A stretch of 64,000 bases of DNA from Candidatus Gastranaerophilales bacterium (lineage in GTDB: Bacteria > Cyanobacteriota > Vampirovibrionia > Gastranaerophilales > Gastranaerophilaceae): NCBI GenBank assembly GCA_944326565.1, contig CALVEL010000003.1, positions 124,001-188,000 of the forward strand, given 5' to 3'. A program made the position numbers and the translations under genes. Below are positions 1 to 53,975 of the stretch, in pieces. The notes under the pieces are model-generated. The model saw nothing but the letters and a program-made list of their open reading frames with translations. It was not told where the DNA came from and did no database searches. The first letter of the stretch is position 1. The number at the start of each line of letters is the position of its first letter.

Positions 1-132
1 GCAGCTAAAATGTATGAAAAAGCTTCTGAAATAGTTAAAACTATTACCAAAAATAACTGTATTCATCTTGAAATACAAAAAGCAAAAGCTGTATTAAAAA
101 CATTCTGCCAACTTAATAAAATTTCAATATAG
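1..132 (+). CDS. 3' end of an unidentified gene (partial)
   Basis: The frame is open from the first base of the window and ends at a TAG at 130-132, giving the last 43 residues of a protein that begins outside the window. The visible part is helical and lysine-rich (AAKMYEKASEIV... to NKISI) and could be the end of a TPR-type or other all-helical protein, but no family is recognisable. It lies on the same strand as gatA with a 104-nt AT-rich gap. Confidence 0.45.
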   Translation, partial: AAKMYEKASEIVKTITKNNCIHLEIQKAKAVLKTFCQLNKISI

Positions 133-236
133 AGAATAGTAACAGTATTTATTATATAACTTTAAAATGTAAAGTATTACTTGCTAAAGAACTGTTTTTG
201 TCATACCATAAATTCATAAGAATTTAAGGAGAAATT

Positions 237-1700
237 ATGAACGAGGTTTTAAAGAAATCAGCAGCCGAGCAAAGCAGAGCTTTGAAAAATAAAGAAATTT
301 CCGCTGTAGAATTAACCAATGCAGCATTTGAGAGAATAAATGAACTTGATGAAAAATTAGGTGCTTTCAATTCTCTAACAAAAGAAATTGCACTTAATAC
401 AGCTAAAAAAGTAGATGAAAAAATTGCAAAAGGCGAAGAATTACCACTTTTAGCAGGTGTTCCTCTTGCATTGAAAGATAACATGAATTTAAAAGGATCA
501 AAAACAACAGCTTCAAGTAAAATTTTGGAGAATTTTGTATCTCCTTTCAATGCTACTGTCACAGAAAAACTTTTGAATAATTTGGTTCCTATAGTCGGAA
601 AAGCAAATTTAGACGAATTTGCGATGGGATCATCCAATGAAAATTCGGCTTTCAAAAAAGTACATAACCCATGGGATTTAAAGAAAGTTCCAGGAGGCTC
701 ATCAGGAGGTTCAGCAGCGAGTGTATCCTCTTGCGAAGCTACTCTTGCACTAGGTTCTGACACAGGCGGCTCAATTCGTCTTCCAGCATCATTTTGTGGG
801 ATTGTAGGTATGAAACCGACTTATGGAAGAGTATCAAGATACGGATTAATTGCATTTGCTTCATCTTTAGATCAAATAGGACCTTTCGCCAGAACAGTAG
901 AAGATGCTGCAAATCTTTTAGAAGTAATCTCAGGTCATGACCCAAAAGACAGTACCTCTTTAAATCTTCCGATTGAGCATTACGCCGAAGATTTAAATAA
1001 AGATATAAAAGGCATGAAAATCGGTGTAATAAAAGAGCTTATGACAGAAGGACTTTCTGAAGATGTTGCAAAAGCAATGGAAAGAGCAATTGAAGATTAT
1101 AAAAAATTAGGTGCTGAAATAATTGAAATTTCTCTACCAAATTTAAAACATTCAATTGGAATTTATTATATTCTTGCAACAGCTGAATGCTCATCAAATC
1201 TGGCACGTTTTGACGGTGTAAAATACGGATATAGAACTCCAGATGCCAAAAATCTTATGGAAATGTATACAAAAACTCGTGCAGAAGGATTCGGACCCGA
1301 AGTTAAACGCCGTATAATGCTCGGTACATATGCTCTATCTTCTGGATATTATGATGCATATTATAAAAAAGCTCAGCAAATGAGAGCCCTTGTGACTCAA
1401 GATTTTATAGAAGCATTCAAAAAAGCTGATGTCTTAATCTCACCGACATGTCCGAATACAGCATTTGAACTTGGGGCAAAATCAAGTGATCCGCTTGCAA
1501 TGTATTTAACAGACATCGCAACAATTTCTGCTAACCTTGCAGGAATTCCAGGTATGAGTGTACCTGCCGGATTTGATAAAGATGGTATGCCTATAGGCTT
1601 GCAAATTTTAGCTCCTCAACTTCAAGAAAAACGATTATTTAACGCAGCTCACAAATTTGAACGAGCTAATGATTATTACTTGCAGTTAGCAAAAATATAA
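237..1700 (+). CDS. gatA: Aspartyl/glutamyl-tRNA(Asn/Gln) amidotransferase subunit A
   Basis: GatA is the amidase subunit of the GatCAB complex, which converts misacylated Glu-tRNA(Gln) or Asp-tRNA(Asn) to the amidated form in the cytoplasm. At 487 residues it has the normal family length. The amidase-signature triad is visible: Lys80 (PLALKDN), cis-Ser155 in the GGSSGGS loop and nucleophile Ser179 in SDTGGSI. An AAGGAG Shine-Dalgarno about 7 nt before the ATG supports the start. gatB and gatC are not in the window, so the complex is encoded at dispersed loci. A strong bidirectional hairpin terminator follows. Confidence 0.97.
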   Translation: MNEVLKKSAAEQSRALKNKEISAVELTNAAFERINELDEKLGAFNSLTKEIALNTAKKVDEKIAKGEELPLLAGVPLALKDNMNLKGSKTTASSKILENFVSPFNATVTEKLLNNLVPIVGKANLDEFAMGSSNENSAFKKVHNPWDLKKVPGGSSGGSAASVSSCEATLALGSDTGGSIRLPASFCGIVGMKPTYGRVSRYGLIAFASSLDQIGPFARTVEDAANLLEVISGHDPKDSTSLNLPIEHYAEDLNKDIKGMKIGVIKELMTEGLSEDVAKAMERAIEDYKKLGAEIIEISLPNLKHSIGIYYILATAECSSNLARFDGVKYGYRTPDAKNLMEMYTKTRAEGFGPEVKRRIMLGTYALSSGYYDAYYKKAQQMRALVTQDFIEAFKKADVLISPTCPNTAFELGAKSSDPLAMYLTDIATISANLAGIPGMSVPAGFDKDGMPIGLQILAPQLQEKRLFNAAHKFERANDYYLQLAKI

Positions 1701-1712
1701 TTCAATAATAAT

Positions 1713-1747
1713 AAAAAAAGGCGGTTTTTAAAAACCGCCTTTTTTAT
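1713..1747. terminator. Bidirectional rho-independent terminator
   Basis: AAGGCGGTTTTT and AAAAACCGCCTT form a GC-based stem flanked by an A-run on one side and a T-run on the other. It can therefore end gatA on the plus strand and the convergent membrane gene on the minus strand, whose stop codon lies at its right edge. Confidence 0.88.
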
Positions 1748-2358
1748 GCAAAAACATTTCTAAAAAACAAAACTAACAACAAAACAAAACCGCCAAGACC
1801 AAAAACCAATATAATTAAATACCATATATAATTTGGTATACCCTCATCTAAAAGATCCTCATTTTGTATACGGCATGGGAGTCCGAGTTTTCTTATTATT
1901 GATATTATTTTTTTCACATCTTTTTTATATTGAACATGTATTACAGTATTTGCATTCGTATCAAGTCGAAACAGCAACTCACCATTCACAAGCTCTTTGT
2001 ATTGCTTGCCCAGTGTAAGAAACCAGAACATTGTCGGTCTCTCATCCAATTCTAACCTTACTCTTTCTACGTTTGCAAGTTTCAGTTTAACTTTATCATC
2101 AAAAATTACAACTTTTGCATCCGTATCTATTACCATTTTCCGAAAACCGCCCATATCCCAATATTTTAGAGTAGGCGTATAAAGATAAAAATGATATAAA
2201 ATAAGAATAAAAAACGGAATATAAATAAATGTGGAATATTTATAAAATACTACTGCTACTGTTGCAAATATAAAATACCCAAAAATGAGGCAATACATAA
2301 TTGCCTTACTATATATAAAAGAACTTTTCGATTGTGTATAAAATGTATGCTTAGCCAT
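1744..2358 (-). CDS. Three-TM membrane protein of unknown function (PH-like core)
   Basis: The protein has 204 residues. Two N-terminal hydrophobic segments lie near residues 20-40 and 44-62, a soluble middle (about 65-175) is rich in beta-type alternation, and a C-terminal hydrophobic segment lies at 178-200 followed by a short basic tail. The arrangement of two TM helices followed by a beta-rich cytosolic domain resembles bacterial PH-domain membrane proteins, but this is inference from pattern only. No Shine-Dalgarno precedes the ATG; a good promoter places the transcript start on the ATG itself. It converges on gatA and shares its terminator. Confidence 0.6.
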   Translation of the reverse strand: MAKHTFYTQSKSSFIYSKAIMYCLIFGYFIFATVAVVFYKYSTFIYIPFFILILYHFYLYTPTLKYWDMGGFRKMVIDTDAKVVIFDDKVKLKLANVERVRLELDERPTMFWFLTLGKQYKELVNGELLFRLDTNANTVIHVQYKKDVKKIISIIRKLGLPCRIQNEDLLDEGIPNYIWYLIILVFGLGGFVLLLVLFFRNVFA

Positions 2359-2364
2359 AATTTA

Positions 2365-2393
2365 AGAATATCTTTTCACACCTTAATTGTCAA
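2365..2393 (-). promoter_or_regulatory. Sigma70-type promoter giving a leaderless transcript
   Basis: On the minus strand, TTGACA (2388-2393) is followed by a 17-nt spacer and TATTCT (2365-2370). The ATG of the membrane gene starts 6 nt after the -10 box, so the expected transcript start coincides with the start codon. Confidence 0.65.
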
Positions 2394-2394
2394 C

Positions 2395-2423
2395 AAACGT
2401 CTGTATGATATTTACAGACGTTT
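2395..2423. repeat. 11-bp-stem inverted repeat between two minus-strand genes
   Basis: AAACGTCTGTA and TACAGACGTTT are separated by 7 nt. The repeat lies just past the stop of the 2459-2758 gene and immediately upstream of the -35 box at 2388-2393. On the minus strand no U-run follows, so it could be an operator, an RNA 3'-end stabiliser or a weak terminator. Confidence 0.5.
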
Positions 2424-2458
2424 ATTTTTAAAAATTTACAAAATCCAGCATTAAAATA

Positions 2459-2758
2459 TTATGAAGCGCTCAATCTAAAACTTCTTATATCAACCTGCTT
2501 ATCGCAATCAAGCTTAAACTCTTTACCACCCAGTGTAATCATCTTAGGCAACTTCATCATATCAGGTTGAACTATTAAAGAAAAAGTATTTATTCCATTA
2601 AATTCTTTTAAATCTTTTACAATTTCTTTAGCTTCTTCTGAATCAGCACCATACTTTGATGAGACAATACTATACCAATATTCACCGTTTTTCGGCTCAT
2701 AGACCTCATAATGTTCCGATAAAATAACTCTGCCTGTTTCTTTTTTTAAATCTGACAT
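2459..2758 (-). CDS. Small LysM-like protein
   Basis: The start is placed at 2758 (MSDLKKETG), 20 codons inside the longest open frame, because AAAGGAG lies 9 nt upstream. The product has 99 residues. The middle and C-terminal part (EYWYSIVSSKYG, then a helix, then LIVQPDMMKLPKMITL) has the W-x-I...helix...L-x-L-P layout of a LysM domain. There is no signal peptide or TM segment, so if it binds glycan it is not exported by the usual route. It follows the small gene 2840-3025 on the same strand with an 81-nt gap. The LysM assignment is tentative. Confidence 0.55.
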   Translation of the reverse strand: MSDLKKETGRVILSEHYEVYEPKNGEYWYSIVSSKYGADSEEAKEIVKDLKEFNGINTFSLIVQPDMMKLPKMITLGGKEFKLDCDKQVDIRSFRLSAS

Positions 2759-2839
2759 AATGGGGTACTCCTTTACTATTTGAATCCGCAAAATCAACTT
2801 TTTAATTATATTCCACAATCTGAAAAGAAATTAACATGT

Positions 2840-3025
2840 CTAGGCTTTAAAATTCTTTTCTTCAGGCGGAATTTCTTCAGGTTTGACCTGATTTCCAAAA
2901 CCAAATCCAAATATAGAAAAACCTTTTGATTTATTTTCAACTTGAGGTTGTTCTGTTCCTGCATTTCTTTGAGCTTCCAATTTATTAAGCTCTGCTAATG
3001 CTCTCATTGCACTGATGTTTGTCAT
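2840..3025 (-). CDS. Small hypothetical protein
   Basis: The start is set at 3025 (MTNISAM) because GAGGAG lies 8 nt upstream; the open frame itself begins 11 codons earlier without a ribosome site. The 61-residue product has a short alanine/leucine helix (MRALAELNKLEAQ), a polar stretch, and a glycine-phenylalanine patch (GFSIFGFGFGN) before an acidic tail. No family is recognised. It is probably transcribed together with the LysM-like gene downstream. Confidence 0.5.
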   Translation of the reverse strand: MTNISAMRALAELNKLEAQRNAGTEQPQVENKSKGFSIFGFGFGNQVKPEEIPPEEKNFKA

Positions 3026-3161
3026 GACCTGTACTCCTCTCTTTTCAGAATGCTGCAACCATTTTTCTTATATTTAATATAAAAATTTAGAAAAGAGCGG
3101 ATTTCGGCATGCCGTTATTTTGTTACATTGCGTAATAATATAAACTAATTTTTAATCCTAT

Positions 3162-3383
3162 TTATACATCTATATCTTTAAAAAATTCTTCCATCGGAAT
3201 ATTCAAAATTTTTGACATCTTAAATAAAGCAATCGCAGAAGGAGAAGTTAACCCCTGTTCAAGTTTACTGACATGACTTACGCTCATGTCAATCATTTCC
3301 GCAAATTGTTCCTGTGAAAGATATTTTCTTATTCTTTCAACTTTTATATTACGCCCTAATTTATGTTTAATGTCATCTTTCAT
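3162..3383 (-). CDS. XRE-family HTH regulator, pilin pair A
   Basis: The 73-residue protein is essentially one Cro/CI-type helix-turn-helix: helix 1 is NIKVERIRKYL, the SQEQFAEMIDMSVSHVSKLEQG core contains helices 2-3, and a C-terminal helix pair (LFKMSKILNIPMEEFF) follows. It is divergent from the pilin gene at 3490, with 106 nt between starts. No Shine-Dalgarno precedes the ATG, and TATAAT lies 7 nt upstream, so the mRNA looks leaderless, as is known for lambda cI from PRM. It probably represses or switches the adjacent pilin promoter through the palindrome at 3440-3455. Confidence 0.85.
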   Translation of the reverse strand: MKDDIKHKLGRNIKVERIRKYLSQEQFAEMIDMSVSHVSKLEQGLTSPSAIALFKMSKILNIPMEEFFKDIDV

Positions 3384-3390
3384 TAGAAAA

Positions 3391-3396
3391 ATTATA
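3391..3396 (-). promoter_or_regulatory. -10 box of a leaderless XRE gene
   Basis: On the minus strand TATAAT is followed by 7 nt and then the ATG of the XRE gene; no Shine-Dalgarno is present. A weak -35 (TTATAC) lies 17 nt upstream and overlaps the pilin promoter region. Confidence 0.5.
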
Positions 3397-3401
3397 TTAT
3401 C

Positions 3402-3430
3402 TTGACAAATTGAGTATAAGTGAATATTAT
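3402..3430 (+). promoter_or_regulatory. Promoter of pilin gene A
   Basis: TTGACA (3402-3407), a 17-nt spacer and TATTAT (3425-3430) give a near-consensus sigma70 promoter directed at the pilin gene. Confidence 0.7.
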
Positions 3431-3439
3431 AATAGTAAC

Positions 3440-3455
3440 TATCAATATATTGATA
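3440..3455. promoter_or_regulatory. Perfect 16-bp palindrome, candidate XRE operator
   Basis: TATCAATATATTGATA reads identically on both strands and begins 10 bp after the -10 box, covering the expected transcript start of the pilin gene. A dimeric HTH protein bound here would block initiation. It shares the outline TATC-N8-GATA with the palindrome at 29177-29192 in another regulator/pilin gap. Confidence 0.6.
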
Positions 3456-3489
3456 TAAATAATAATATATTATCTGCTAAGGAGCTTTT

Positions 3490-4170
3490 ATGAATAAATC
3501 GGCCTTCACAATGGCGGAAGTCTTAATTACTCTCGGAATTATCGGAATTGTTGCCGCAATGACACTGCCTGCACTCATTAATAAAGCAGAAGAGTATATA
3601 CTAAAGCAACAGTTTAAAAAAGCATATAATACCTTGCAAAATGCCCAATTACGCATATACGCCGACACAGAAAGTTATTACAGTTGTTATTATTACAAAA
3701 ATACAGCCCAAACCAGATTCTCCGATTGTCGTTTAATGGGGGAACATTTAAAAAAGATTCTAAATCCTGCAGTTGTTTGTGATGGCAGTGCCTATGCAAA
3801 AGGCTGTATCCCGAAATATAAGGGTATAGACACAGTTTCTATAGAAAACAACCCGAATGCTGATGTAGAAAATATCTTGAGAAACTGTGGCGGATTTTCT
3901 GAAAACAGAATTCTTAACAATGCTACAACCTGGGTATTGAAAGACGGGACTATAGTCGGCTGGTATAATTATAATAGTGTAGGTTACGGTCCATTGATAT
4001 ACGTCGATATAAACGGAAACAAACGACCTAACAAATGGGGATATGATATATTTCCTATGATATGGAGAAGTGATGAACAAAGAGTCTGGCTTGACGCGGA
4101 CGGTGTTTGTACATTTACGCAAAAGGGCGGGAAAAGCAGCAAGCAGATGTTACAGGATATTTGGAAATAA
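3490..4170 (+). CDS. Type IV pilin/pseudopilin-like protein, pair A
   Basis: This 226-residue prepilin has a very short leader (MNKSA) followed by FTMAEVLITLGIIGIVAAM, with the conserved Glu at +5 and a hydrophobic N-terminal helix. The residue before the cleavage site is Ala instead of the usual Gly. The globular part contains six or more cysteines and the motif VDINGNKRPNKWGYD shared by most pilins of this window. An AAGGAG site lies 6-7 nt before the ATG. The gene is divergent from an XRE regulator and ends in a hairpin terminator. No assembly machinery is nearby, so a role in a pilus, secretion pseudopilus or DNA uptake cannot be assigned. Confidence 0.88.
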   Translation: MNKSAFTMAEVLITLGIIGIVAAMTLPALINKAEEYILKQQFKKAYNTLQNAQLRIYADTESYYSCYYYKNTAQTRFSDCRLMGEHLKKILNPAVVCDGSAYAKGCIPKYKGIDTVSIENNPNADVENILRNCGGFSENRILNNATTWVLKDGTIVGWYNYNSVGYGPLIYVDINGNKRPNKWGYDIFPMIWRSDEQRVWLDADGVCTFTQKGGKSSKQMLQDIWK

Positions 4171-4173
4171 TAA

Positions 4174-4205
4174 TAAAGGCGAAGCCTGATGACTTCGCCT
4201 TTTTG
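4174..4205 (+). terminator. Rho-independent terminator after pilin A
   Basis: AAAGGCGAAG and CTTCGCCTTTTT form a stem with an 8-9-nt loop and a T-run just past the pilin stop codon. The dnaK 3' end lies 20 nt further on the opposite strand. Confidence 0.85.
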
Positions 4206-4226
4206 AGCAAATAAGTAAGAAATTTA

Positions 4227-6074
<1,848 letters not shown>

Positions 6075-6220
6075 TTATTATCTCCTTTACAATACAATTT
6101 ATTTCTTACCTTAATTCTGTTATAACACTCTTTTTTTTAAATCCTTAAAAAATAAACAAAAAATTAATAATTATATTTGATATTTTTATTGTTAAGATTT
6201 TATATTTATTTGGCATAGTA

Positions 6221-6247
6221 AAAAAAAAAGCGCTCAAAAGAGCGCCT
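6221..6247 (-). terminator. Terminator of the small secreted protein gene
   Basis: Read on the minus strand, GCGCTC-TTTT-GAGCGC is followed by a run of ten T. It lies 15 nt past the stop of the 6262-6573 gene. Confidence 0.88.
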
Positions 6248-6261
6248 GAATGACTATTATT

Positions 6262-6573
6262 TTATTTACCCGCCTCTGGATTTCTTCCCGGCAGACATAC
6301 CCCGAATTGACAATTTGAATTGTAATTATTTTCTTCGTGTGTACCAGCAGCTGCACCTGTTTCCGTATTTATAAGCTCATTATAATATGGCTTGATATAC
6401 TGAGGACGAAAAGCATCCGGCTTTTGAATATCTTTTATGTTATTTGGAAGATATTTGTCCTGTAGTGCAGGCTTTGATATTGAATACGCACAAGAATTAC
6501 CGCTTATTGCACAAGATGCAATCGCAGGCATTGAAAATAAAATAACAGCCATTATCAATAATATCTTTTTCAT
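6262..6573 (-). CDS. Small secreted cysteine-containing protein
   Basis: The start is taken at 6573 (MKKILLIMAVILF), three codons inside the open frame, since AAAGG lies 9 nt upstream. The 103-residue product has a clear signal peptide (residues 1-20, likely cleaved near AIAS-CAIS) and a mature region with four cysteines in two close pairs (C-AISGNS-C and C-QFGV-C), suggesting disulfides or a bound metal. The position of the first Cys does not fit a good lipobox. No family is recognised. It has its own terminator and sits alone upstream of dnaK. Confidence 0.6.
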   Translation of the reverse strand: MKKILLIMAVILFSMPAIASCAISGNSCAYSISKPALQDKYLPNNIKDIQKPDAFRPQYIKPYYNELINTETGAAAGTHEENNYNSNCQFGVCLPGRNPEAGK

Positions 6574-6718
6574 TTTTACCAACCTTTCACATATCCAACC
6601 AACTACAGATTAAACTACTATTCACATTTTTACATTACCGAAAAGTAGAATTTTAAGTATTTTATATGATTGAACAAATTAAAATATAATTTATAATTCA
6701 AATAGAATGGAGGATTTA

Positions 6719-7126
6719 ATGAAACACACTTTAAAGACATTAATTATAATTTCATTATTATTTGGTGGATTACAATCCTATTCTGCAAGTATTTGTCCTA
6801 CAACAGCAGAAGTTCAAGAAAAAGAAAATTATTTCCAAATACAATCAATAAAAAATATGAGTTTGGAGTCTCCTGATCCTGAAATAACTTCAAAAATACT
6901 TCATGAGCAGGAAATTTACCATGAAAAATTGTACTACGGTTGTATGAATTACTTTAAAACAAACAAAAACCCAGATTGTTCTCGCTTGATGACTCTAACT
7001 ACAGGATATTTATTATTGTCTGAAAAAAAACAACCAATCGCTAAAGCACAATTAACTTCACTTATTGAAAAATTGAATGCCAAATGTCCAATGGAAATAA
7101 AAACTATAGAAGCAATGGTCAAATAA
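6719..7126 (+). CDS. Small secreted protein of unknown function
   Basis: The start at 6719 (MKHTLKTLIIISLLF) is supported by GGAGG 5 nt upstream; an earlier in-frame ATG overlaps that ribosome site. The 135-residue protein has a signal peptide ending around residue 23 (SYSAS) and a mainly helical mature part with four cysteines (ICPT, YGCM, PDCS, AKCP), consistent with two disulfides in the periplasm. No known family is apparent. It is monocistronic. Confidence 0.6.
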   Translation: MKHTLKTLIIISLLFGGLQSYSASICPTTAEVQEKENYFQIQSIKNMSLESPDPEITSKILHEQEIYHEKLYYGCMNYFKTNKNPDCSRLMTLTTGYLLLSEKKQPIAKAQLTSLIEKLNAKCPMEIKTIEAMVK

Positions 7127-7141
7127 TTTATTAAAAAAAAA

Positions 7142-7176
7142 GACCTCCTATTTTGGTTATCAGAGGTCAAGGTTGG
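7142..7176. repeat. Hairpin flanked by short TTTTGGTTAT direct repeats
   Basis: GACCTC and GAGGTC pair across a 15-nt loop just after the secreted-protein gene, and TTTTGGTTAT or its shortened form TTGGTTAT recurs three times within 50 nt. On the plus strand there is no T-run after the stem, while on the minus strand nine T follow it, but no minus-strand gene ends here. Its role is unclear. The rest of 7127-7319 shows only the YkgJ-type promoter. Confidence 0.3.
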
Positions 7177-7304
7177 TTATTTTGGTTATGTTATAGTATG
7201 TTCTTATTCAGGGGTATGTTCTTTTAATACCGCTGAACAAATTTATTTGCCAAAAATCTCCCAAAAACTTTACAAAACTTTATAATTTCAAATATTTTTG
7301 AATC

Positions 7305-7313
7305 TGCTATCAT
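7305..7313 (+). promoter_or_regulatory. Extended -10 of a leaderless gene
   Basis: TGC-TATCAT is an extended -10 element, and 6 nt later comes the ATG of the cysteine-cluster gene. No Shine-Dalgarno exists between them. Confidence 0.5.
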
Positions 7314-7319
7314 GTAATT

Positions 7320-7754
7320 ATGTTTTTAAAATTGAAAAAATGGTTTTTGTCGACAATACTCAGACGCAAATATTACCGCACAGGCAAGTGTAAAGCATGT
7401 GGCAAATGCTGCACCCAAATTTATGTAAAACACTATAAACATGTAGTACAAGATGAAAAAGAATTCGAAAAATTAAAACTTTTACACAGGTTTTATACAT
7501 ACTTAAAAGTAATAGGCAAAGATGATATCGGATTAATTTTTGAATGCACAAATTTAAATCCTGAAACGCATAAATGTAAAATTCACAAAAATCGCCCAGG
7601 TATTTGCAGAAGATATCCTCAAGAAGAGTTATTTTCAATGGGTGGGGCATTATCTGAAGATTGCGGATACAAAATGGAGCCGATTATACCATTTTCTGAA
7701 ATATTAGAAAAAGAATTTAAAAGATTTGATAAGGATTTAAAGAAAAAACGATAA
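7320..7754 (+). CDS. YkgJ-type cysteine-cluster protein (putative Zn/Fe-binding)
   Basis: The 144-residue protein contains the CKACGKCC cluster near residue 23 followed by CTNLNPETHKCKIHKNRPGICRRYP, the spacing typical of the YkgJ/UPF0153 family thought to bind zinc or iron-sulfur. The N-terminus is strongly basic with no signal peptide. Substrate and pathway are unknown for the family. The ATG lacks a Shine-Dalgarno and appears to be the first transcribed codon. The neighbour downstream is a rubrerythrin with its own ribosome site. Confidence 0.75.
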   Translation: MFLKLKKWFLSTILRRKYYRTGKCKACGKCCTQIYVKHYKHVVQDEKEFEKLKLLHRFYTYLKVIGKDDIGLIFECTNLNPETHKCKIHKNRPGICRRYPQEELFSMGGALSEDCGYKMEPIIPFSEILEKEFKRFDKDLKKKR

Positions 7755-7846
7755 TAATTCCTACTTTACAAATTTTATTTTATAGTGTATAGTAATACAT
7801 GTAAAAGAGATAGATAATTTTTTTAAATTAAGAAAGGTGGTAAAAA

Positions 7847-8386
7847 ATGGCAAAATTTGTATGTACAGTATGCGGTTGGTCAACCGAAGCAGATAAAGCT
7901 CCAGAAAGATGCCCATTATGCGGAGCAACAACTTTTAAAGAAATAGGCGGCGGTGAAAAAGTATATGCTTGTGAACATAATGTAGGCGATGGAGTTGTAG
8001 AAGACAAAGAAGTTATGGAAGGTCTTAGGGCACACTTTGCAGGAGAATGCACAGAGGTAGGTATGTATCTTGCAATGGCAAGAGTAGCTGAAAGAGAAGG
8101 TTATCCTGAAGTTGCAGAAGCTTATAAAAGATATGCTTTTGAAGAAGCAGAACACGCAGCTAAATTTGCAGAATTGTTGGGCGAAGTTGTTACAGATTCT
8201 ACAAAGAAAAACCTTGAACTTAGGGCAGAAGCTGAGCATGGTGCTTGTGAAGGTAAATTAGCTATTGCAAAACGTGCTAAAGAATTAGGCTATGATGCAA
8301 TTCATGACACCGTTCATGAAATGGCTAAAGACGAAGCTCGTCATGGCAAAGGCTTTGACGGTCTTTTGAAAAGATACTTTTCATAA
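7847..8386 (+). CDS. Rubrerythrin with N-terminal rubredoxin domain
   Basis: This cytoplasmic peroxide-detoxifying protein is typical of anaerobes. The 179 residues comprise a rubredoxin-like FeS4 domain first (Cys6-x2-Cys9 and Cys22-x2-Cys25) and then a four-helix diiron domain with E-x-x-H ligands in EEAEHAAKF and DEARHGKGF. In classical rubrerythrin the rubredoxin module is at the C-terminus, so this is the reverse arrangement known from several strict anaerobes. An AAAGGTGG site precedes the ATG. A strong terminator follows and is shared with the convergent XRE gene. Its presence suggests an anaerobic or microaerobic lifestyle. Confidence 0.92.
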
Positions 8387-8408
8387 GAGTTGAGAAAAAT
8401 ATAAATAA

Positions 8409-8443
8409 TAAAAACTCCATCGAAAAATTTCGATGGAGTTTTT
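8409..8443. terminator. Bidirectional terminator between rubrerythrin and XRE gene B
   Basis: AACTCCATCGAAA and TTTCGATGGAGTT form a long stem with A-run and T-run flanks; the minus-strand XRE stop codon touches its right end. Confidence 0.88.
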
Positions 8444-8651
8444 ATTTGAATAAATCTATAACTTCAATCCCCAAAAAATCTGCAATACTGATAATTTTAT
8501 CAATTGTAATATTCAATTTTGCATTTTCGACTTTTCCAATATAAGATCCATCAAGCTCTAATTCTAAAGATAGATCTTCCTGAGAAAGTCCTTTTTGTTT
8601 TCTGTATTTTCTTAAATTTTTCCCGAATTTTTTCTTTACATTCTTATTCAT
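8442..8651 (-). CDS. XRE-family HTH regulator, pilin pair B
   Basis: The start is taken at 8651 (MNKNVKKKFG), since the longer frame begins at a GTG upstream of likely promoter sequence. The 69-residue protein is a single Cro/CI-type HTH (LRKYRKQKGLSQEDLSLELE, then GSYIGKVENAK) plus a C-terminal helix pair ending DLFK. No Shine-Dalgarno is visible. It is divergent from pilin gene B with about 98 nt between starts and probably controls that gene. Its sequence is clearly different from the other three pilin-linked XRE proteins, as expected if each has its own operator. Confidence 0.82.
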   Translation of the reverse strand: MNKNVKKKFGKNLRKYRKQKGLSQEDLSLELELDGSYIGKVENAKLNITIDKIISIADFLGIEVIDLFK

Positions 8652-8689
8652 AAAAATATTTTCTGTTGTATTATGATATAATTCCACGA

Positions 8690-8718
8690 TTGACAGTCGG
8701 GTTAAGTGGTGTTATACT
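8690..8718 (+). promoter_or_regulatory. Promoter of pilin gene B
   Basis: TTGACA (8690-8695), a 17-nt spacer and TATACT (8713-8718) form an almost consensus sigma70 promoter, 31 nt upstream of the pilin ATG. Confidence 0.8.
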
Positions 8719-8738
8719 AGCTGTACATGTTCGATTAG
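8717..8738. promoter_or_regulatory. Imperfect palindrome, possible XRE operator
   Basis: CTA...TAG ends enclose a GTACATGTTC core centred on ACATGT, right after the -10 box. Several positions do not match, so this is only a weak analogue of the perfect palindromes at 3440 and 29177. Confidence 0.25.
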
Positions 8739-8749
8739 AGGTAATATTT

Positions 8750-9517
8750 ATGAAAAGAAAAAAGGCCTTTACTATGGCAGAAGTTTTAATCACACTCGGG
8801 ATATTAGGGATAGTAATTGCTATGACTTTGCCGACAGTTATAAACAATGCAAGAAACAAGGAACTTGAGACAAGGTTCAAGCAAGCATATTCACAAATAT
8901 ATCAAGCTGTACTTTTAACAGCAAACGAAGACCCTCAGCTATGGCAGACATATTGTGGAGGGGTAACAAAGCATTCGGAAATTTTTTTCGAAAAATTTTC
9001 TGAGAAGTTTCAAACTGTTAACATATATGATCCAAACATTGTAAAAAAACGAAATCTTAAATTACTTGGATATGAGCAAGAATATTTTTATATACCTGAA
9101 CGTGGCAATAAAAATTTTAATCCGGACGGATATGATGTGGGAGCTTTTGTTACAAAAAACGGAATGATTATATTTAACAGTGGATGTTGGTGGAGGGCTT
9201 TAGACTTTGTAGTCGATACTAATGGTTTGAAAGGTCCTAATAAATTTGGATATGATGTTTTTTACTTTCAAATTTCTAAGAATGATCAACTTCTTCCATC
9301 CAGCATTAACAGCTCATTTAGCACAGAATATTCTCAAAACATGGGTTGTTGTTCCTTTACTGGGGAAACTTCAGGAGAATATTGCGACAGTTCAGATAAT
9401 AACTGGCTAGGCGGTACAGCTAGTGATAACGGGAGTGCCTGCTCAAGATTTGCGCTAATGGATATTTTTCCAGGGGATGAGCGAAAATCATATTGGAAAA
9501 ACTTGCCAAGACCTTAA
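8750..9517 (+). CDS. Type IV pilin/pseudopilin-like protein, pair B
   Basis: The start is set at 8750 (MKRKKA-FTMAEVLITLG) because GAGGT lies 7 nt upstream and because this gives a short basic prepilin leader; the open frame runs further upstream through the promoter. The 255-residue product has Glu at +5, Ala at -1, a hydrophobic N-terminal helix and the VDTNGLKGPNKFGYDVF motif. The C-terminal region has many cysteines (MGCCSF, EYCDSS, SACSRF), a trait of disulfide-stabilised minor pilins. Its stop codon directly abuts the stop of the convergent gene at 9518. Confidence 0.88.
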   Translation: MKRKKAFTMAEVLITLGILGIVIAMTLPTVINNARNKELETRFKQAYSQIYQAVLLTANEDPQLWQTYCGGVTKHSEIFFEKFSEKFQTVNIYDPNIVKKRNLKLLGYEQEYFYIPERGNKNFNPDGYDVGAFVTKNGMIIFNSGCWWRALDFVVDTNGLKGPNKFGYDVFYFQISKNDQLLPSSINSSFSTEYSQNMGCCSFTGETSGEYCDSSDNNWLGGTASDNGSACSRFALMDIFPGDERKSYWKNLPRP

Positions 9518-9982
9518 TTAGTTTGGCTTATCTATAATTATGCCTTGATTTTTGTAGTTTATATGCTTTCTTTGCATTTCATACATTTCATTGCGCTCGT
9601 TTTCGGCGTTTCTGACACCTTCATAGCAGAAAGCTTTTTCTTCTTCAGTCAAAGTATTACAATGTTCTATAGCTTTTTCAAAATTTGCTCGTCTTTCAGC
9701 CCAGTAATTACTTTTTGTCCTTTCTGCATCTACGAAATTTATTACATTTAAAACATTTTTTTTATCAGTAGCTTTGGCGTTCTCATATCCGCTTTCACAA
9801 AACTCTTCCCATTTAGGAGCATTAATATTCTGTACAGCAGGTTTCACTGCAGGAGTCTGAGGCTCTGTAGGTAATTCTAAAGTATCAATTTCATCTAAAG
9901 TTATCGTACCTTGCTCATCTGCAAATACTGGTATTGATATAAAACCGATTAATAAAGAAATTACAAATATTTTTTTCAACAT
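9518..9982 (-). CDS. Secreted acidic protein of unknown function
   Basis: The 154-residue protein has a signal peptide (MLKKIFVISLLIGFISIPVFA-DE), a short proline/threonine linker (residues 30-50) and a helical domain with three cysteines (EFCES, EHCNT, AFCYE). AGGAG lies 6 nt before the ATG. It is the last gene of a leftward unit with the 96-aa membrane protein and the acyl-CoA synthetase. No family recognised. Confidence 0.6.
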   Translation of the reverse strand: MLKKIFVISLLIGFISIPVFADEQGTITLDEIDTLELPTEPQTPAVKPAVQNINAPKWEEFCESGYENAKATDKKNVLNVINFVDAERTKSNYWAERRANFEKAIEHCNTLTEEEKAFCYEGVRNAENERNEMYEMQRKHINYKNQGIIIDKPN

Positions 9983-9994
9983 TACTGGCTCCTA

Positions 9995-10285
9995 TTAAAT
10001 TCTATTATGCCAAACTCCGCCTTTTCTATCTACAAATGCATCATACGCCGACCAAAGTCGAAATACAACCGTAAGACCTAAAAGAGCATGTGTACAGTTT
10101 TTTTCATAAGGATTGTCTAGTATAACTTGACCAAGTCCCGGCCAAATTATAAGTGACAAGGCTGCAGCACCAACAGATAATCCTGAAATTTTACCTGGTT
10201 GCCCGACAGTTCGTTCTGCAAATGCTGGTAGCATTCCACCTAAAATAATAAATATGAAACTTGAAATTATAACTTTTTTTATCAT
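9995..10285 (-). CDS. Small membrane protein with signal-like N-terminus
   Basis: The 96-residue protein starts with a basic-hydrophobic segment (MIKKVIISSFIFIILGGMLPAFA) that could be a cleaved signal peptide, followed by a second hydrophobic stretch (GAAALSLIIWPGLGQVI) and a third around residues 66-80. The PGLGQ motif resembles the TM2/TM5-type small membrane domains. It starts 6 nt after the stop of the acyl-CoA synthetase gene, which indicates translational coupling. Confidence 0.55.
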   Translation of the reverse strand: MIKKVIISSFIFIILGGMLPAFAERTVGQPGKISGLSVGAAALSLIIWPGLGQVILDNPYEKNCTHALLGLTVVFRLWSAYDAFVDRKGGVWHNRI

Positions 10286-10291
10286 ATTAAC

Positions 10292-11965
10292 TTAAGATTT
10301 TACTAATTCTTTGACTTCTTTTCGCTTAACTTTTCTTGTTGTTGTTCTTGGCAATGGATTTCTGCTTACTACTATATTAATCGGACGTTTATAAGGTGTC
10401 AATCGTTCTGAGAGTCGTTTCACTTCATCTTTACATAATTTGTCAACAGTTTCATCATCATATTTTGATATAACATCTTCAGAAGGGACAACAACAGCTG
10501 CAATATCCTCAGTTCCGTCTTTTGCACCGAAAGTTCTTGATACTCCAAGTACACAGACTTCTGCAAAGTAAGGACTTTTTTCTAATACAGCTTCAACTTC
10601 TTCAGGAAATACTTTTTTACCACCTGACAAAACTATCATATTTTTAATGCGACCTGTAATATAAATATGACCGTCTTTCGTAATTTTTGCTATATCACCG
10701 GTATGTAACCAGCCATCAGGATCAATTGTCTCAGCAGTCAATTCAGGCTGATTGTGATATCCTTTCATAATTGCAGGACCGCGAAGCTGTAATTCACCTG
10801 TTTCTTTATCAATACGGGCTTGGAAACTTTTTAATGGTCTGCCGACTGATGCTAAATCGTTACGTTTGTCGGTATTTACCGATACAACAGGACTTGTCTC
10901 AGATAGTCCGTATCCTTGATACACTTTTATACCTATTCTTTCAAAAAATTCACCTACTGAAAGATCCAATGGAGCACCGCCTGAAATGCAGCCCATAAAA
11001 TGCCCTCCAAATTTGTCATGGATTTTTTTGAACATTATTTTTTTAACTCTATAAGATGGAATAAATTTTGAAAGTTTTATCATTAATTTGAATAGGAGCT
11101 GTATATGCTTTGGCGAATTATTTATTTCTGATTCTATACCTGTTTTTAACAGTTTTAAAAACGCAGGCACAACTATCATAAAATCAACCTTTTTAGCGCG
11201 CATAATGCCTAAAATATCTTTAGGTTTTAGACTAGGTGTGTAATAGACACTGAATCCAAAATTTAAAAATGTGCTAAAACCGACAGTCATTTCAAAAAGA
11301 TGATTCATAGGAAGAATTGATAAAATCGTAACCATTCTATTTGGTAAAATTTTATTTAGTGCATCTTCAAGGTCGTCTAATTGAGAGAGCATATTTAAAA
11401 AAGAGATTTCAACTCCTTTAGGTGAACCTGTTGTACCTGAGGTATATATAATAAAAGCTGTTGATTTAGATGATCTCGGACGCCATCTTGCTTCATAATT
11501 ATCAGGAAGGTTATACAAGCTCTTACATTCCATATCAGGATGAGGCTCATCCATAACTATAATATCTTTTATACAAGGTAATTCTTTCTGTAATTCAATT
11601 GCCATATGCAAATACGTACTTGAGACAAGCATAACTATTGGCTCACAATCTGAAAGTATACTATGCAGTTCATACTTCGTAAGTTTTACATCCAAAGGAA
11701 CTGTCACCATTCCAGCCATAGCTGATGCAAATACACAAGCACCATATTCCGGTTTGGATTCTGACAAAATTGCCAATCTGTCACCTTTTTTTACATCCAA
11801 ACAATCAATTAAATAACAAGCCAGCTTTCTTGAAAGCATACCGATACCTTTGTATGTAAATTCTTTCCAACCCAATGGCGTTTTTGTTCCTAAAGCAATT
11901 CTTTCCCCATACTTCTTTGTCCTCTCATCTAAAAGTGAAAGTACATTTTTTCTTCTTGATTCCAT
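10292..11965 (-). CDS. AMP-forming acyl-CoA (or acyl-ACP) synthetase
   Basis: This ANL-superfamily adenylating enzyme activates a carboxylic acid, most likely a fatty acid, using ATP. The 557 residues contain the P-loop YTSGTTGSPKG at 174-184, the YQGYGLSETSP acceptor motif, the GWLHTGDIAKI motif, the hinge ITGRIKNMIVLSGGKKVFP and a C-terminal catalytic lysine candidate in RTTTRKVKRKEV. The order and spacing fit long-chain acyl-CoA ligases. An AAAGGGG site lies 12 nt upstream of the ATG. Two small exported proteins follow in the same direction; whether they act with it is unknown. Confidence 0.9.
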   Translation of the reverse strand: MESRRKNVLSLLDERTKKYGERIALGTKTPLGWKEFTYKGIGMLSRKLACYLIDCLDVKKGDRLAILSESKPEYGACVFASAMAGMVTVPLDVKLTKYELHSILSDCEPIVMLVSSTYLHMAIELQKELPCIKDIIVMDEPHPDMECKSLYNLPDNYEARWRPRSSKSTAFIIYTSGTTGSPKGVEISFLNMLSQLDDLEDALNKILPNRMVTILSILPMNHLFEMTVGFSTFLNFGFSVYYTPSLKPKDILGIMRAKKVDFMIVVPAFLKLLKTGIESEINNSPKHIQLLFKLMIKLSKFIPSYRVKKIMFKKIHDKFGGHFMGCISGGAPLDLSVGEFFERIGIKVYQGYGLSETSPVVSVNTDKRNDLASVGRPLKSFQARIDKETGELQLRGPAIMKGYHNQPELTAETIDPDGWLHTGDIAKITKDGHIYITGRIKNMIVLSGGKKVFPEEVEAVLEKSPYFAEVCVLGVSRTFGAKDGTEDIAAVVVPSEDVISKYDDETVDKLCKDEVKRLSERLTPYKRPINIVVSRNPLPRTTTRKVKRKEVKELVKS

Positions 11966-12111
11966 CTATTATCTTAACCCCTTTACAAATATTAAAAGAC
12001 CTAATTTTAGAATATAATTTTTATCGCCAAAAGTCAAGGCTTTATTGCAAAACGGTATATGTTTATATTATAATTCTTATACGAAAAAGATAATTTTAAG
12101 GAAATTTTGTA

Positions 12112-18632: not shown

Positions 18633-19370
18633 TTAATGCAGTTTTGTAAAGTAATCTTTTTCATTGATTGCTTTTATTGTACATCCAGCGCCATTCATAT
18701 TATTTGTTGATGTAGAAGAGCAGTATGCATCATTTGCATCATAATAATCTGTACCTTCTGCTCCCATTGGAAGTAAATTACCTTTATTGTCAATTTGGAA
18801 CATAAAAAGATCATGTCCTAATCGATTCGGATTTTTCAGATGTCCGTTTACATCTACTGAAATATACATTTTATTATTATTATATGGACCGTTATTTTCT
18901 AATAAGATAAGATTTCCATCGCTTAATACAAATTGACCGTCATCAAAGAAATTTAGATTGATATTATTTGTACCAGTAAAATTTTTATATACTTGAGAAT
19001 TTCTATCTGGATCATGATAATTGGGAATACAAGATGTAGAGGTACCAGAATGTCCCCAGCCACAGTCTTGGAGAACTTTCATATAATTGACTAATGTGGG
19101 TTTTAACTTTCTATCCCCAACATATTCAGGGGTAAGTCTTTCACCGTTTTGGGCATAATACATATTCAGCGCTTGACTTATCACTGAATAATTCTTCTTA
19201 AATGCTGTCTCTAGTTCCTTGTTCTTTTTGTTATTGATTAATGACGGCAGAGTCATCGCCGCAACTATTCCGATTATTCCTAAGGTTATCAAAACCTCTG
19301 CCATTGTAAATCCTATTTTTTTACCTGCTAGGAGCTTATTTTCGGGTGCCCCCCCCCCCCATAATTTCAA
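18633..19370 (-). CDS. Pilin/pseudopilin-like gene with poly-G leader (phase-variable candidate 1)
   Basis: The frame encoding the prepilin is open from a TTG at 19370 through GKKIG-FTMAEVLITLGIIG to the stop (245 codons). The natural start is probably the ATG at 19383 with AAGGAG 6 nt upstream, but the 12-G run at 19349-19360 puts that ATG out of frame and it reaches a TAA after 15 codons. Eleven or 14 G would restore a roughly 24-residue leader before the cleavage site. The mature part has Glu+5, several cysteines and the VDVNGHLKNPNRLGHDLF motif. No XRE gene is paired with it. Confidence 0.8.
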   Translation of the reverse strand: MKLWGGGAPENKLLAGKKIGFTMAEVLITLGIIGIVAAMTLPSLINNKKNKELETAFKKNYSVISQALNMYYAQNGERLTPEYVGDRKLKPTLVNYMKVLQDCGWGHSGTSTSCIPNYHDPDRNSQVYKNFTGTNNINLNFFDDGQFVLSDGNLILLENNGPYNNNKMYISVDVNGHLKNPNRLGHDLFMFQIDNKGNLLPMGAEGTDYYDANDAYCSSTSTNNMNGAGCTIKAINEKDYFTKLH

Positions 19371-24102: not shown

Positions 24103-24807
24103 TCATTTCAAAAGCCAGGATTGATAATAACAAGGCGGACGTTTGCAGTACCATTCCTGGGTTAGTACATCCTCATTTATATAAGGAATAACTTTTTTAT
24201 AATCTTTAGCATAATCTGCTCTAGTATTATTTATATCAGCAAATGTAAACATCCATCTGTCACGACCAAATCTGTTCGGATTTGAAAATCCGTTTGTGTC
24301 TACAAAAAATATGTTTTCATTATTACCAAATGTGCACCAGTTTTGTCCGCCACCATCTATAAAACAGGAAGCTGAACCTTCTTTAGGAACACCGTTTTCC
24401 ATGTCAATACCATCTGCTGAATTTCCTGTATTGCAAGCACCTCCACATATTGTATCACCTTTTTTCCAGCAACGGTCTATATCTTGAGAGCCACAATCTA
24501 GCATTAATTTGAATTTTGATTTTAATATGTTGAATTCTTCTTCTGTAGCGGGTATATCTCTCTTTTCTTTACGGGTAAACTCCTGATTTAGCAATGCTTC
24601 TTGGAATGCTTGAGATATTTCTGAATATACTTTTTTATATGCCGTTTTAAACTGTCTTTCCTGATAATTCTTTATTAGACCGGGTATAGTCATCGCGGCG
24701 ACTATCCCGATTATGCCTAAAGTTATCAAAACTTCTGCTAATGTAAATCCTATTTTTTTACCACTCAGGAGCTTATTTTCGGGTGCCCCCCCCCCCCAGA
24801 ATTTCAA
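24103..24807 (-). CDS. Pilin/pseudopilin-like gene with poly-G leader (phase-variable candidate 2)
   Basis: The open frame runs from a TTG at 24807 (234 codons) through GKKIG-FTLAEVLITLGIIG. The plausible start is the ATG at 24820, 6 nt after AAGGAG. With the 12 G present at 24786-24797 that ATG encodes only a 15-residue peptide (MQTMIEILGGGGTRK) before TAA; 11 or 14 G would fuse it in frame to the pilin. The mature protein has paired cysteines, VDTNGFSNPNRFGRD and the C-terminus PPCYYQSWLLK, and is a close paralogue of the XRE-linked pilin at 53976. Confidence 0.82.
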   Translation of the reverse strand: MKFWGGGAPENKLLSGKKIGFTLAEVLITLGIIGIVAAMTIPGLIKNYQERQFKTAYKKVYSEISQAFQEALLNQEFTRKEKRDIPATEEEFNILKSKFKLMLDCGSQDIDRCWKKGDTICGGACNTGNSADGIDMENGVPKEGSASCFIDGGGQNWCTFGNNENIFFVDTNGFSNPNRFGRDRWMFTFADINNTRADYAKDYKKVIPYINEDVLTQEWYCKRPPCYYQSWLLK

Positions 24808-28881: not shown

Positions 28882-29142
28882 TTATTCATCACCTACTGAA
28901 AAATTTTCAGGCAAATCTTTTTCCAATTCCTGCATAAATTCAGAAATTGACAATCCAAATGCCCCTGATAATTTGAAAAGAGTAGTTAGTTGAGGATCTT
29001 TCACAGCTCTTTCCAAATCACTCAAAACGGATGACGGAATATCATACTCCGCACCGAGCATAAATTGACTTTTATTTCCGCGCAAACGTTTCACTGTTTT
29101 TGCAATTGCGTTAAATATAATTTTCTTTTTAACATCTTGCAT
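28882..29142 (-). CDS. XRE-family HTH regulator, pilin pair C
   Basis: The 86-residue protein is a divergent Cro/CI-type HTH: a basic helix (FNAIAKTVKRLRGNK), SQFMLGAEYDIPSSVLSDLERA as helices 2-3, then LTTLFKLSGAFGLSISEFMQEL and an acidic tail. It is the least canonical of the four pilin-linked regulators. A -10-like CAAAAT lies 7 nt before the ATG and no Shine-Dalgarno is seen. It is divergent from pilin gene C, and the palindrome at 29177-29192 lies in the gap between them. Confidence 0.75.
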   Translation of the reverse strand: MQDVKKKIIFNAIAKTVKRLRGNKSQFMLGAEYDIPSSVLSDLERAVKDPQLTTLFKLSGAFGLSISEFMQELEKDLPENFSVGDE

Positions 29143-29176: not shown

Positions 29177-29192
29177 TATCGCGTACGCGATA
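29177..29192. promoter_or_regulatory. Perfect 16-bp palindrome, candidate XRE operator
   Basis: TATCGCGTACGCGATA is fully self-complementary and unusually GC-rich for this AT-rich region. It lies between the pilin -10 box and its ribosome site. It has the same TATC-N8-GATA outline as the palindrome at 3440-3455 but a different core. Confidence 0.65.
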
Positions 29193-29209: not shown

Positions 29210-29950
29210 ATGCACAATAGAAAAGCCTTTACTATGGCAGAAGTGCTTATTACTTTAGGCATAATCGGAATTATTGCAGCTATGACAATTCCAAATCTTA
29301 TGGGAGCATATAGAAAAAAAGTTGTGGAAACAGAACTGCAAAGAGCTTTTTCGATAATTTCTCAAACAATCAAAATGTCTGAAGTGCAAAATGAAAGTGC
29401 TGCCTACTGGTCATACCCCACTATAGGTGCAGGTTCTTCTCTTGCAGGAGTATTGCAAAATGAAGAGTTCATTAATTTCTATATCAAACCTTATATAAAG
29501 TATATTAAAACTGAAAGAAAAAACATCAAAGTTTACTATTCTGATAAAACACAATCGTATTTGAGAAACTACATTAATAAATTCCCACAATTTATTCTTG
29601 CAGATGGACTATTTTTACAGTTTGCCCCAAGAATAGGTGACATAGGCGGTTATATAATGATTGTATATGTAGGAACAACAAACAGAAATAAAAAAGAAGA
29701 ATTCGTTGAAGGTAAAAATTTATTCGCTTTTACTGTCAATATAGATGACTCCTCAAGCAAAGTCGGACTTATTCCTCAATGGTATCTTAACTGGTCATGT
29801 CAAAAATTGGAGGATGAGCGTAATACTTTTATTAACAATTGCAGGAAAAACCCACGTGAAACAAGCGGAGTGGCATCCTCAATTTATTGTACTTATATGA
29901 TTTATTGCAATAATTGGGAAATTCCTGAGGACTATCCGATAAAATTCTAA
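29210..29950 (+). CDS. Type IV pilin/pseudopilin-like protein, pair C
   Basis: The start is set at 29210 (MHNRKA-FTMAEVLITLG) because GGAGG lies 5 nt upstream; the open frame extends 19 codons further into the promoter region. The 246-residue product has Glu+5 and Ala at -1. Its globular part is the most divergent of the six: the shared motif is degenerate (VGTTNRNKKEEFVEGKNLFAF), and four cysteines cluster in the last 50 residues. It converges on cysS. Confidence 0.86.
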   Translation: MHNRKAFTMAEVLITLGIIGIIAAMTIPNLMGAYRKKVVETELQRAFSIISQTIKMSEVQNESAAYWSYPTIGAGSSLAGVLQNEEFINFYIKPYIKYIKTERKNIKVYYSDKTQSYLRNYINKFPQFILADGLFLQFAPRIGDIGGYIMIVYVGTTNRNKKEEFVEGKNLFAFTVNIDDSSSKVGLIPQWYLNWSCQKLEDERNTFINNCRKNPRETSGVASSIYCTYMIYCNNWEIPEDYPIKF

Positions 29951-53620: not shown

Positions 53621-53658
53621 ACAAAAGGTTCGATTAAATATTTAATCGAACCTTTTGT
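53621..53658. terminator. Bidirectional terminator, perfect 38-nt palindrome
   Basis: ACAAAAGGTTCGATTAAAT and its exact complement form a long stem with essentially no loop, between the small basic gene and the convergent XRE gene, whose TGA begins at its right edge. Confidence 0.85.
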
Positions 53659-53876
53659 CATAGCTGAAATTTTAATAAATCAATTATATCAATTTCTAAA
53701 GCTTTTGCTATTTTAACCAATGTCGAATATTTAGGATCAATTACCCCGCATTCAAGTCTTGACAAAGATCGGGTAGTAAGCCCTGTCTTTATTGACAAAT
53801 CAAGCTGTGACAGCTTTCGTTTACTACGTTCATATTTTATTTTATATCCCAATTTCAATAAGTCATTTTCATCCAT
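53658..53876 (-). CDS. XRE-family HTH regulator, pilin pair D
   Basis: The 72-residue single-domain Cro/CI-type HTH protein has YKIKYERSKRKLSQLDLSIK, TTRSLSRLECG (recognition helix) and LVKIAKALEIDIIDLL. TAAAAT lies 6 nt before the ATG and there is no Shine-Dalgarno, so the mRNA appears leaderless. Its promoter overlaps the -35 region of the divergent pilin D promoter, so expression of the two genes is probably mutually constrained. Confidence 0.85.
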   Translation of the reverse strand: MDENDLLKLGYKIKYERSKRKLSQLDLSIKTGLTTRSLSRLECGVIDPKYSTLVKIAKALEIDIIDLLKFQL

Positions 53877-53893: not shown

Positions 53894-53922
53894 TTGACAA
53901 AATTAAATCGATATACTAGAAT
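53894..53922 (+). promoter_or_regulatory. Promoter of pilin gene D
   Basis: TTGACA (53894-53899), a 17-nt spacer and TAGAAT (53917-53922) form a sigma70-type promoter. ATAC...GTAT ends of a loose inverted repeat (53921-53944) follow, a weak operator candidate. Confidence 0.7.
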
Positions 53923-53975
53923 ACATTTAATAGACATAAAGTATATTATTTAGAATTATAGGATATAAAGTAATT

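Follow-up and report, generated by a model that had tools for sequence, protein, structure and literature searches.

What reads the perfect palindrome that separates a small regulator gene from a pilin gene in Candidatus Gastranaerophilales, gut bacteria that are known here from assembled genomes only? The two genes diverge from a 106-bp intergenic stretch of 18% G+C, which lies in a 64,000-nucleotide segment of DNA that we analyzed as a whole and call the window. The original prediction was that the palindrome serves as an operator, placed so that the adjacent Cro/CI-like protein would block the initiation of pilin transcription. Comparison across genomes strongly supports that proposal, and it places the locus among many others that appear to be built in the same way.

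The predicted anatomy was confirmed by reading the sequence. Every base of the palindrome (O1) is self-complementary, and O1 starts 10 bp past the -10 box of a near-consensus pilin promoter (consensus score of 11/12, with a 17-bp spacer) and ends 34 bp short of the pilin ATG (Table 1). By sequence, the protein encoded downstream is a type IV pilin-like protein with a prepilin N-terminal cleavage/methylation motif, as evidenced by a TIGR02532 score above the cutoff of 16.3 bits; its Pfam N_methyl score of 20.4 falls just below the cutoff of 21.2. The 73-amino-acid regulator belongs, also by profile match, to the XRE/Cro-C1 helix-turn-helix (HTH) family, scoring far above the curated cutoff of 23 bits for HTH_3 (PF01381). 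No Shine-Dalgarno sequence was found upstream of this XRE gene. Because a conserved -10 box is found 7 nt before its ATG, XRE transcription probably starts at about 3384, beside the ATG, and the mRNA is probably leaderless. A separate XRE promoter on the other strand had been proposed as well; a putative minus-strand promoter is there, but it is not cleanly separated. Its conserved -10 box (3396 to 3391) and the pilin -35 box are only 5 bp apart, and the region that precedes the XRE promoter includes another operator-like site as well as the -10 box of the pilin. On its other side, the XRE gene adjoins a 72-aa open reading frame (ORF) (2840 to 3058, minus strand) that has no Pfam or NCBIfam match.

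Table 1. Positions in the window of the genes, promoter elements, and candidate operators of the four divergent XRE-pilin cassettes
Feature	Position	Strand	Remarks
XRE (Cro/C1-type HTH) regulator gene, 73 aa	3162-3383	-	HTH_3 55.2 bits
Putative XRE promoter -10 box TATAAT	3391-3396	-	7 nt before XRE ATG; AATTATA conserved in 26 loci
Pilin promoter -35 box TTGACA	3402-3407	+	consensus match; conserved in 26-locus alignment
O0, weaker operator-like site AGTGAATATTATAATA	3419-3434	none	10/16; over pilin -10 box; center 21 bp from O1
Pilin promoter -10 box TATTAT	3425-3430	+	conserved in 26-locus alignment
O1, main operator (candidate), perfect palindrome TATCAATATATTGATA	3440-3455	none	just past predicted pilin start site
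O2, weaker operator-like site TAATAATATATTATCT	3460-3475	none	10/16; center 20 bp from O1; in pilin leader
Shine-Dalgarno AAGGAG of pilin	3479-3484	+	AGGAG kept in five loci of the genus
Pilin A, 226 aa, prepilin-type N terminus	3490-4170	+	TIGR02532 19.5 bits
Second cassette XRE (orthogroup C)	8442-8651	-	ATG start inside listed GTG ORF
Second cassette operator (candidate) CGATTGACAGTCG	8687-8699	none	over pilin -35 box; conserved in orthologs; dyad 0/300
Second cassette pilin	8750-9517	+	N_methyl 25.6 bits; TIGR02532 19.3 bits
Third cassette XRE, 86 aa (orthogroup E)	28882-29142	-	
Third cassette operator (candidate) TATCGCGTACGCGATA	29177-29192	none	
Third cassette pilin	29210-29950	+	
Fourth cassette XRE, 72 aa (orthogroup D)	53658-53876	-	
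Fourth cassette sites, conserved, not clearly dyadic	53909-53946		CGATATACTA at 53909-53918; TAGACATAAAGTATAT at 53931-53946
Fourth cassette pilin	53976-54638	+	

The symmetry of O1 is, by itself, weak evidence for an operator, since perfect 16-bp palindromes are not rare in DNA this AT-rich. Shuffling the intergenic stretch 2000 times produced one in 56 cases, and the window contains 5, compared with 2.07 expected (standard deviation, 1.39; 30 shuffles). The genome has only one exact copy of the O1 sequence, with one other place at one mismatch and 14 at two. The near-copies number 15, against 8 for a reversed-pattern control, and the regulon may exceed one gene. Among the XRE-pilin pairs of the genome, the best perfect inverted repeat was equaled by 0, 7, 11, and 15 of 300 shuffles in four pairs, but in other pairs over 150 of the 300 did as well. 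Taken alone, palindrome strength was above shuffles in some pairs only and was set aside as a way to recognize operators. Because palindrome spotting is weak, footprinting among orthologs is needed, and conservation across genera is strong evidence.

A family-wide search of 288 sampled genomes defined orthogroup A, which comprises 26 loci from six genera with XREs 66 to 100% identical. The distribution of the cassette is patchy, with one locus in each of 26 of the 288 genomes at an XRE identity of at least 66%. Among the 13 other genomes of the genus, 4 have an XRE with at least 89% identity, and the intergenic layout is alike in all 4. Alignment of the 26 loci reveals five conserved blocks, namely, AATTATA by the XRE start, TTGACA, TAAGTGAATAT, the palindrome, and, beyond it, a second ATATTGATA. 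Across these loci, O1 matches the consensus at a mean of 15.2 of 16 bases, the promoter geometry is kept, and the dyad of the consensus is reached by 0 of 300 column shuffles. The palindrome had been described as TATC-N8-GATA, which captured its symmetric ends but not its center, for the center is as conserved as the ends and therefore is not free. A named collection yielded 13 orthologs (XRE identity of at least 67%), of which 10 were already among the 26 loci and 3 were new; their MAG labels read Candidatus Gastranaerophilales (7), Candidatus Melainabacteria (1), and other bacteria (5). The exact 10-base operator half-plus-center occurs in 12 of these 13, the exception being L158 with TATCAAAATATTGATA. 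None of 14 XREs with 34 to 44% identity has this pattern within the 130 bp that precede it (27 of 63 loci examined). This cross-genus conservation makes a compelling case for O1 as an operator.

The genes on the pilin side of the palindrome are exchanged. In orthogroup A, the gene immediately downstream is a pilin at 23 of the 26 loci; in its place, L118 has a glycosyltransferase-like gene (judged by eye) and L123 an ORF of 97 aa, and at L129 the pilin is inverted. When the 23 pilin-bearing loci are compared pairwise (253 pairs), median identity is 75% for the XREs, 71% for the first 28 pilin residues, and 25% for the pilin bodies, which is near random (20% when shuffled). Close relatives mostly keep their pilin, and payload replacement is not constant: in the 11 pairs whose XREs reach 90% identity, pilin body identity has a median of 81% and a range of 20 to 94%. 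The clearest replacement is found between L067 and the window's own locus, L001, which share an XRE at 92% identity, the same operators, and the same dnaK-like neighbor (by eye) and have pilin bodies that are 20% identical. Loss of the palindrome where the gene pair is conserved had been named beforehand as grounds for refutation; instead, the palindrome is kept in the orthologs and accompanies the XRE even at loci with a replaced pilin.

O1 is not a lone site. The idea of a single blocking site holds for O1 itself, but two weaker sites, O0 and O2, lie 20 to 21 bp on either side of it, where conserved AGTGAATATAATGATA-like and ATATTGATA blocks form imperfect copies of the palindrome with their centers at that distance. 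When the better of two adjacent offsets is taken in orthogroup A, +20/+21 ranks first and -21/-20 ranks second of 54 offset pairs, with 11.96 and 10.62 of 16 matches over a background of 7.21 (standard deviation, 1.15; 26 loci). At the single fixed offset of -21, the A motif is only sixth-best among nonzero offsets, partly because the spacing in orthogroup A alternates between 20 and 21 bp. The -21 flanking site is clearest in orthogroup B, a set of 16 loci whose XREs are 44 to 47% identical to that of the window and which carry a different palindrome, ATTTACTATAGTAAAT, at the same place as O1, again with a consensus dyad that 0 of 300 column shuffles reach. The B weight matrix peaks exactly at -21, 0, and +21 (2.1, 17.6, and 1.7 bits), with all other offsets from -45 to 45 at or below -4.9, and the A matrix scores -16.1 and -15.5 at the orthogroup B flanking sites. 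Three homologous sites at regular spacing make this, as judged from motif matches, a lambda-type array in which the window's own flanking sites are weak. Genome-wide, tandem dyads at 20 to 22 bp reach a P value of <0.05 in 8 of 32 pairs (Fisher, 4e-6), but the same holds for 7 of 41 regions upstream of pilins that have no XRE (Fisher, 7e-5), a control set that shares leaders and was not de-duplicated. This spacing was rejected as a genome-wide signal, and since controls that lack an XRE also show tandem dyads, we claim the three-site array for orthogroups A and B only.

We propose, with considerable confidence, that O1 is the principal operator of the neighboring 73-aa XRE, that together with the weaker O0 and O2 it serves to shut off the pilin, and that regulator and operators form a conserved socket. 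An XRE dimer on O1 would block the pilin promoter by covering it from about +4 to +19. O0, which covers the pilin -10 box and precedes the XRE promoter, and O2, which belongs to the pilin leader, are each two helical turns from O1, a distance at which neighboring dimers could occupy the same face of the helix. Occupancy by the XRE would then turn the pilin off and feed back on the XRE gene; the center of O0 precedes the putative XRE start by about 43 bp, and from there a dimer of the Cro/CI or C-protein kind could activate or tune that gene. The socket would thus comprise the regulator and its operators, whereas the payload would differ, being a pilin here and, in other loci, also a glycosyltransferase-like gene. 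With a dyad that is conserved together with the regulator and overlaps the divergent promoter region, the locus has the sequence layout of an autoregulated divergent repressor-operator module with a predicted operator. We infer binding, cooperativity, repression, and feedback; of the outcomes, repression is likely, feedback is plausible, and bistability is speculative.

An unlikely alternative accepts the operators as real but makes the XRE chiefly an activator or an autoregulator of its own gene, so that the pilin is affected by promoter competition only. The distance between O0 and the putative XRE start is activator-like, the two promoters overlap, and controller (C) proteins bind tandem operators of which the distal one activates and the proximal one represses (PMC4321490). 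Nevertheless, O1 and O2 are downstream of the predicted pilin start, and O0 lies over the -10 box. Sites in these positions normally repress. Moreover, a pilin promoter so near to consensus should need no activator.

Repression of the pilin from a tandem operator, the reading that we prefer, can also be considered in light of the other cassettes in the genome. The 1.87-Mb genome that contains the window (G000) has 74 pilin-like genes, of which 32 are paired with a divergent XRE at 62 to 202 bp between starts, compared with about 1 such pair expected by chance in a back-of-envelope estimate that assumes 45 XREs among 1850 genes. Four of these pairs are in the window. Across the 32 pairs, a Shine-Dalgarno sequence precedes 8 XREs versus 30 pilins, and a -10-like hexamer lies 3 to 9 nt before the ATG of 12 XREs and 2 pilins, for a shuffling expectation of 18.5%, or about 6 of 32. 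Four orthogroups besides A were footprinted; three (B, C, and E) have their own dyad operator, and D is nondyadic. Over the -35 box, the 21 loci of orthogroup C keep the operator listed for the second cassette or a sequence close to it, with changes in the two loci that are most distant, and most of the 30 loci in orthogroup E keep TATCGCG(A/T)ACGCGATA or variants of it; in each case, 0 of 300 column shuffles reach the consensus dyad. Orthogroup D (30 loci) keeps CGATATAcTA and TAGACATAAAgTATAT, conserved sites in which no clear dyad was found (22 of 300 column shuffles were as good). A single operator common to all cassettes was ruled out when A, B, C, and E gave different motifs: by these footprints there is no universal operator, and both motif and position vary with the XRE orthogroup.

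A pilin is adjacent in 19 of 21 C loci, 20 of 30 E loci, and 14 of 30 D loci, and in D loci L237, L241, L243, L248, L252, L256, and L261, a glycosyltransferase-like gene (by eye) replaces it. In each of five relatives there are 29 to 71 XRE hits and 42 to at least 150 pilin hits (scoring of the last relative covered 150 of its 201 candidates), and divergent XRE-pilin pairs are visible by eye in all five among the matches listed. Some individual loci deserve mention. At C3:212993 of G000, an inverted repeat with 14-bp arms, equaled by 0 of 300 shuffles, lies over the promoter of an XRE-paired pilin. The pilin at C1:325834, for which no XRE was detected, has a long inverted repeat, ATTGATATATTCAATATAATATTGAATATATCAAT, beyond a TTGACA box, and the divergent gene there may be an undetected regulator. 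Finally, at L070 (G004), a 43%-identical XRE is divergent from a small nonpilin ORF beside groES/groEL-like genes (by eye), with a GATTA/TAATC-type element past its -10 box.

Pilin bodies also recur within the genome. Those at C1:163572 and C3:208607, which are under two different XREs, are 94.7% identical, and an XRE-paired body and a poly-G-leader body (C1:446076 and C2:89679) are 94.9% identical. Since near-identical bodies are found under different sockets, the pilin genes seem to be payloads moved among control sockets, with the palindrome belonging to the socket. The second type of socket is distinct: poly-G tracts of 10 to 14 G are upstream of 30 of the 42 pilins that lack a divergent XRE and of 0 of the 32 that have one, and none of the 32 XRE-paired pilins has the tract near its gene start that characterizes poly-G phase-variable genes. 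From their upstream sequences, the poly-G pilins look like cases of slippage phase variation. In the window, poly-G tracts are present at 19349 to 19360 and 24786 to 24797 (minus strand); most tracts in the genome are inside a shared leader, AGGAGCTGGAAATGCAGACTATGATTGAA...GGGGGGGGGGGGCACCCGAAAATAAGCTCCT, whose AGGAGCT and AGCTCCT could pair.

Could O1 instead be slowly evolving, AT-rich promoter DNA whose symmetry is accidental and which no regulator reads? The low G+C content of the intergenic stretch, its conservation over much of its length, and the frequency of 16-bp palindromes in its shuffles are all compatible with such an origin, which is nonetheless very improbable given that conservation is concentrated on the dyad, the adjoining pilin bodies turn over, the motif at the same place changes with the XRE orthogroup, and all 14 nonorthologous XREs examined are without the motif. 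Least probable of all, to a degree that makes it hardly credible, is an RNA hairpin in the pilin 5' leader, a reading set aside on position: the palindrome, between the predicted start site and the Shine-Dalgarno sequence, is probably transcribed, but its stem would be A-U-rich and without a loop of its own, the related O0 lies over the -10 box, where RNA offers no explanation, and the orthogroup C operator overlaps a -35 box, outside the leader. The palindrome is thus very probably the real operator of the neighboring small repressor, in a portable on/off cassette for pilus-like surface proteins.

Although the parts of this cassette are of known kinds, their genome-wide use is the larger result. 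This lineage appears to have dozens of repressor-operator cassettes that serve pilin-like surface proteins, with conserved sockets and exchanged payloads, and the palindrome belongs to one of them. Dozens of pilin-like proteins, many of which have their own repressor and operator or a poly-G tract, point to a large program of surface variation. For a termite-gut relative, pilA-D and pilT have been reported (PMC5877343). Broad searches of the open-licence literature, which was covered in part, gave no report of XRE-pilin cassettes among the matches listed, and this does not establish their absence from print. A bolder idea, which we offer tentatively and consider somewhat unlikely, is that each cassette is an independent, heritable, bistable switch with C-protein-like positive and negative feedback at tandem operators; about 32 such switches and about 30 poly-G pilins, with bodies recombining between socket types, would constitute a combinatorial, epigenetically inherited surface code. 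If true, surface phase variation would arise here by regulator occupancy and not by DNA change. Also, short XRE orthogroups with footprinted operators provide a natural library of protein-DNA specificity, in which recognition residues can be matched to half-sites.

Several known systems resemble the cassette, among them the controller proteins of restriction-modification (R-M) systems. The predicted structure of the 73-aa XRE has five helices (best model with a pLDDT of 95; averages of the five models from 95.0 to 53.5), and its top Foldseek matches in the PDB are C.BclI (TM score of 0.87; 33% identity over 70 columns), followed by C.AhdI; other fold matches include CapH, ClgR, DdrO, SinR, P22 c2, and lambda repressor domains. 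C.BclI is also matched by sequence (E value of 4e-10). As modeled, the XRE resembles R-M controller proteins over its full length and has their single-domain fold; C.BclI, C.AhdI, and C.Esp1396I are, like it, single-domain proteins of nearly equal length. Like the cassette described here, C proteins have tandem operators close enough for side-by-side dimers. C-protein mRNAs are commonly leaderless (PMC4824078), and the PvuII C protein forms a hysteretic switch (PMC3695507). Autoactivation, known for C proteins, is conjectured for the XRE, whose mRNA is predicted to be leaderless. However, C proteins are encoded together with a restriction endonuclease and a methyltransferase, whereas the XRE of orthogroup A has a pilin (23 of 26 loci) or another gene as its neighbor, and no R-M gene was recognized by eye among the ORFs of window positions 1 to 12000. 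Identification as an R-M controller was rejected on this gene context.

The lambdoid Cro/CI switches (lambda OR, P22 c2, and 434) share with the cassette divergent, overlapping promoters and a small HTH dimer, the latter predicted here. The lambda operator has three sites about two helical turns apart, as do the operator-like sites of this locus, and the DNA-binding domains of lambda CI and P22 c2 match the predicted fold of the XRE. Unlike the lambdoid repressors, the XRE, at 73 aa in all, is without a C-terminal oligomerization/autocleavage domain, and having an HTH domain only, it was not identified as a lambda CI. Two further differences from those switches are that no opposing Cro-like gene was seen here and that the regulator has a chromosomal surface gene as its proposed target.

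Small XRE repressors of the SinR/CylR2 type are similar in sequence (SinR and CylR2) and in fold (SinR). They control surface or secreted products, with one regulator per operon; in contrast, dozens of regulator-operator pairs occur in one genome here. Finally, the poly-G contingency loci of Neisseria and Campylobacter resemble the second pilin class, most members of which have their tract with the shared leader. The XRE cassettes differ from such loci in being without a tract, and any switching in them would be achieved by protein occupancy, not by slippage.
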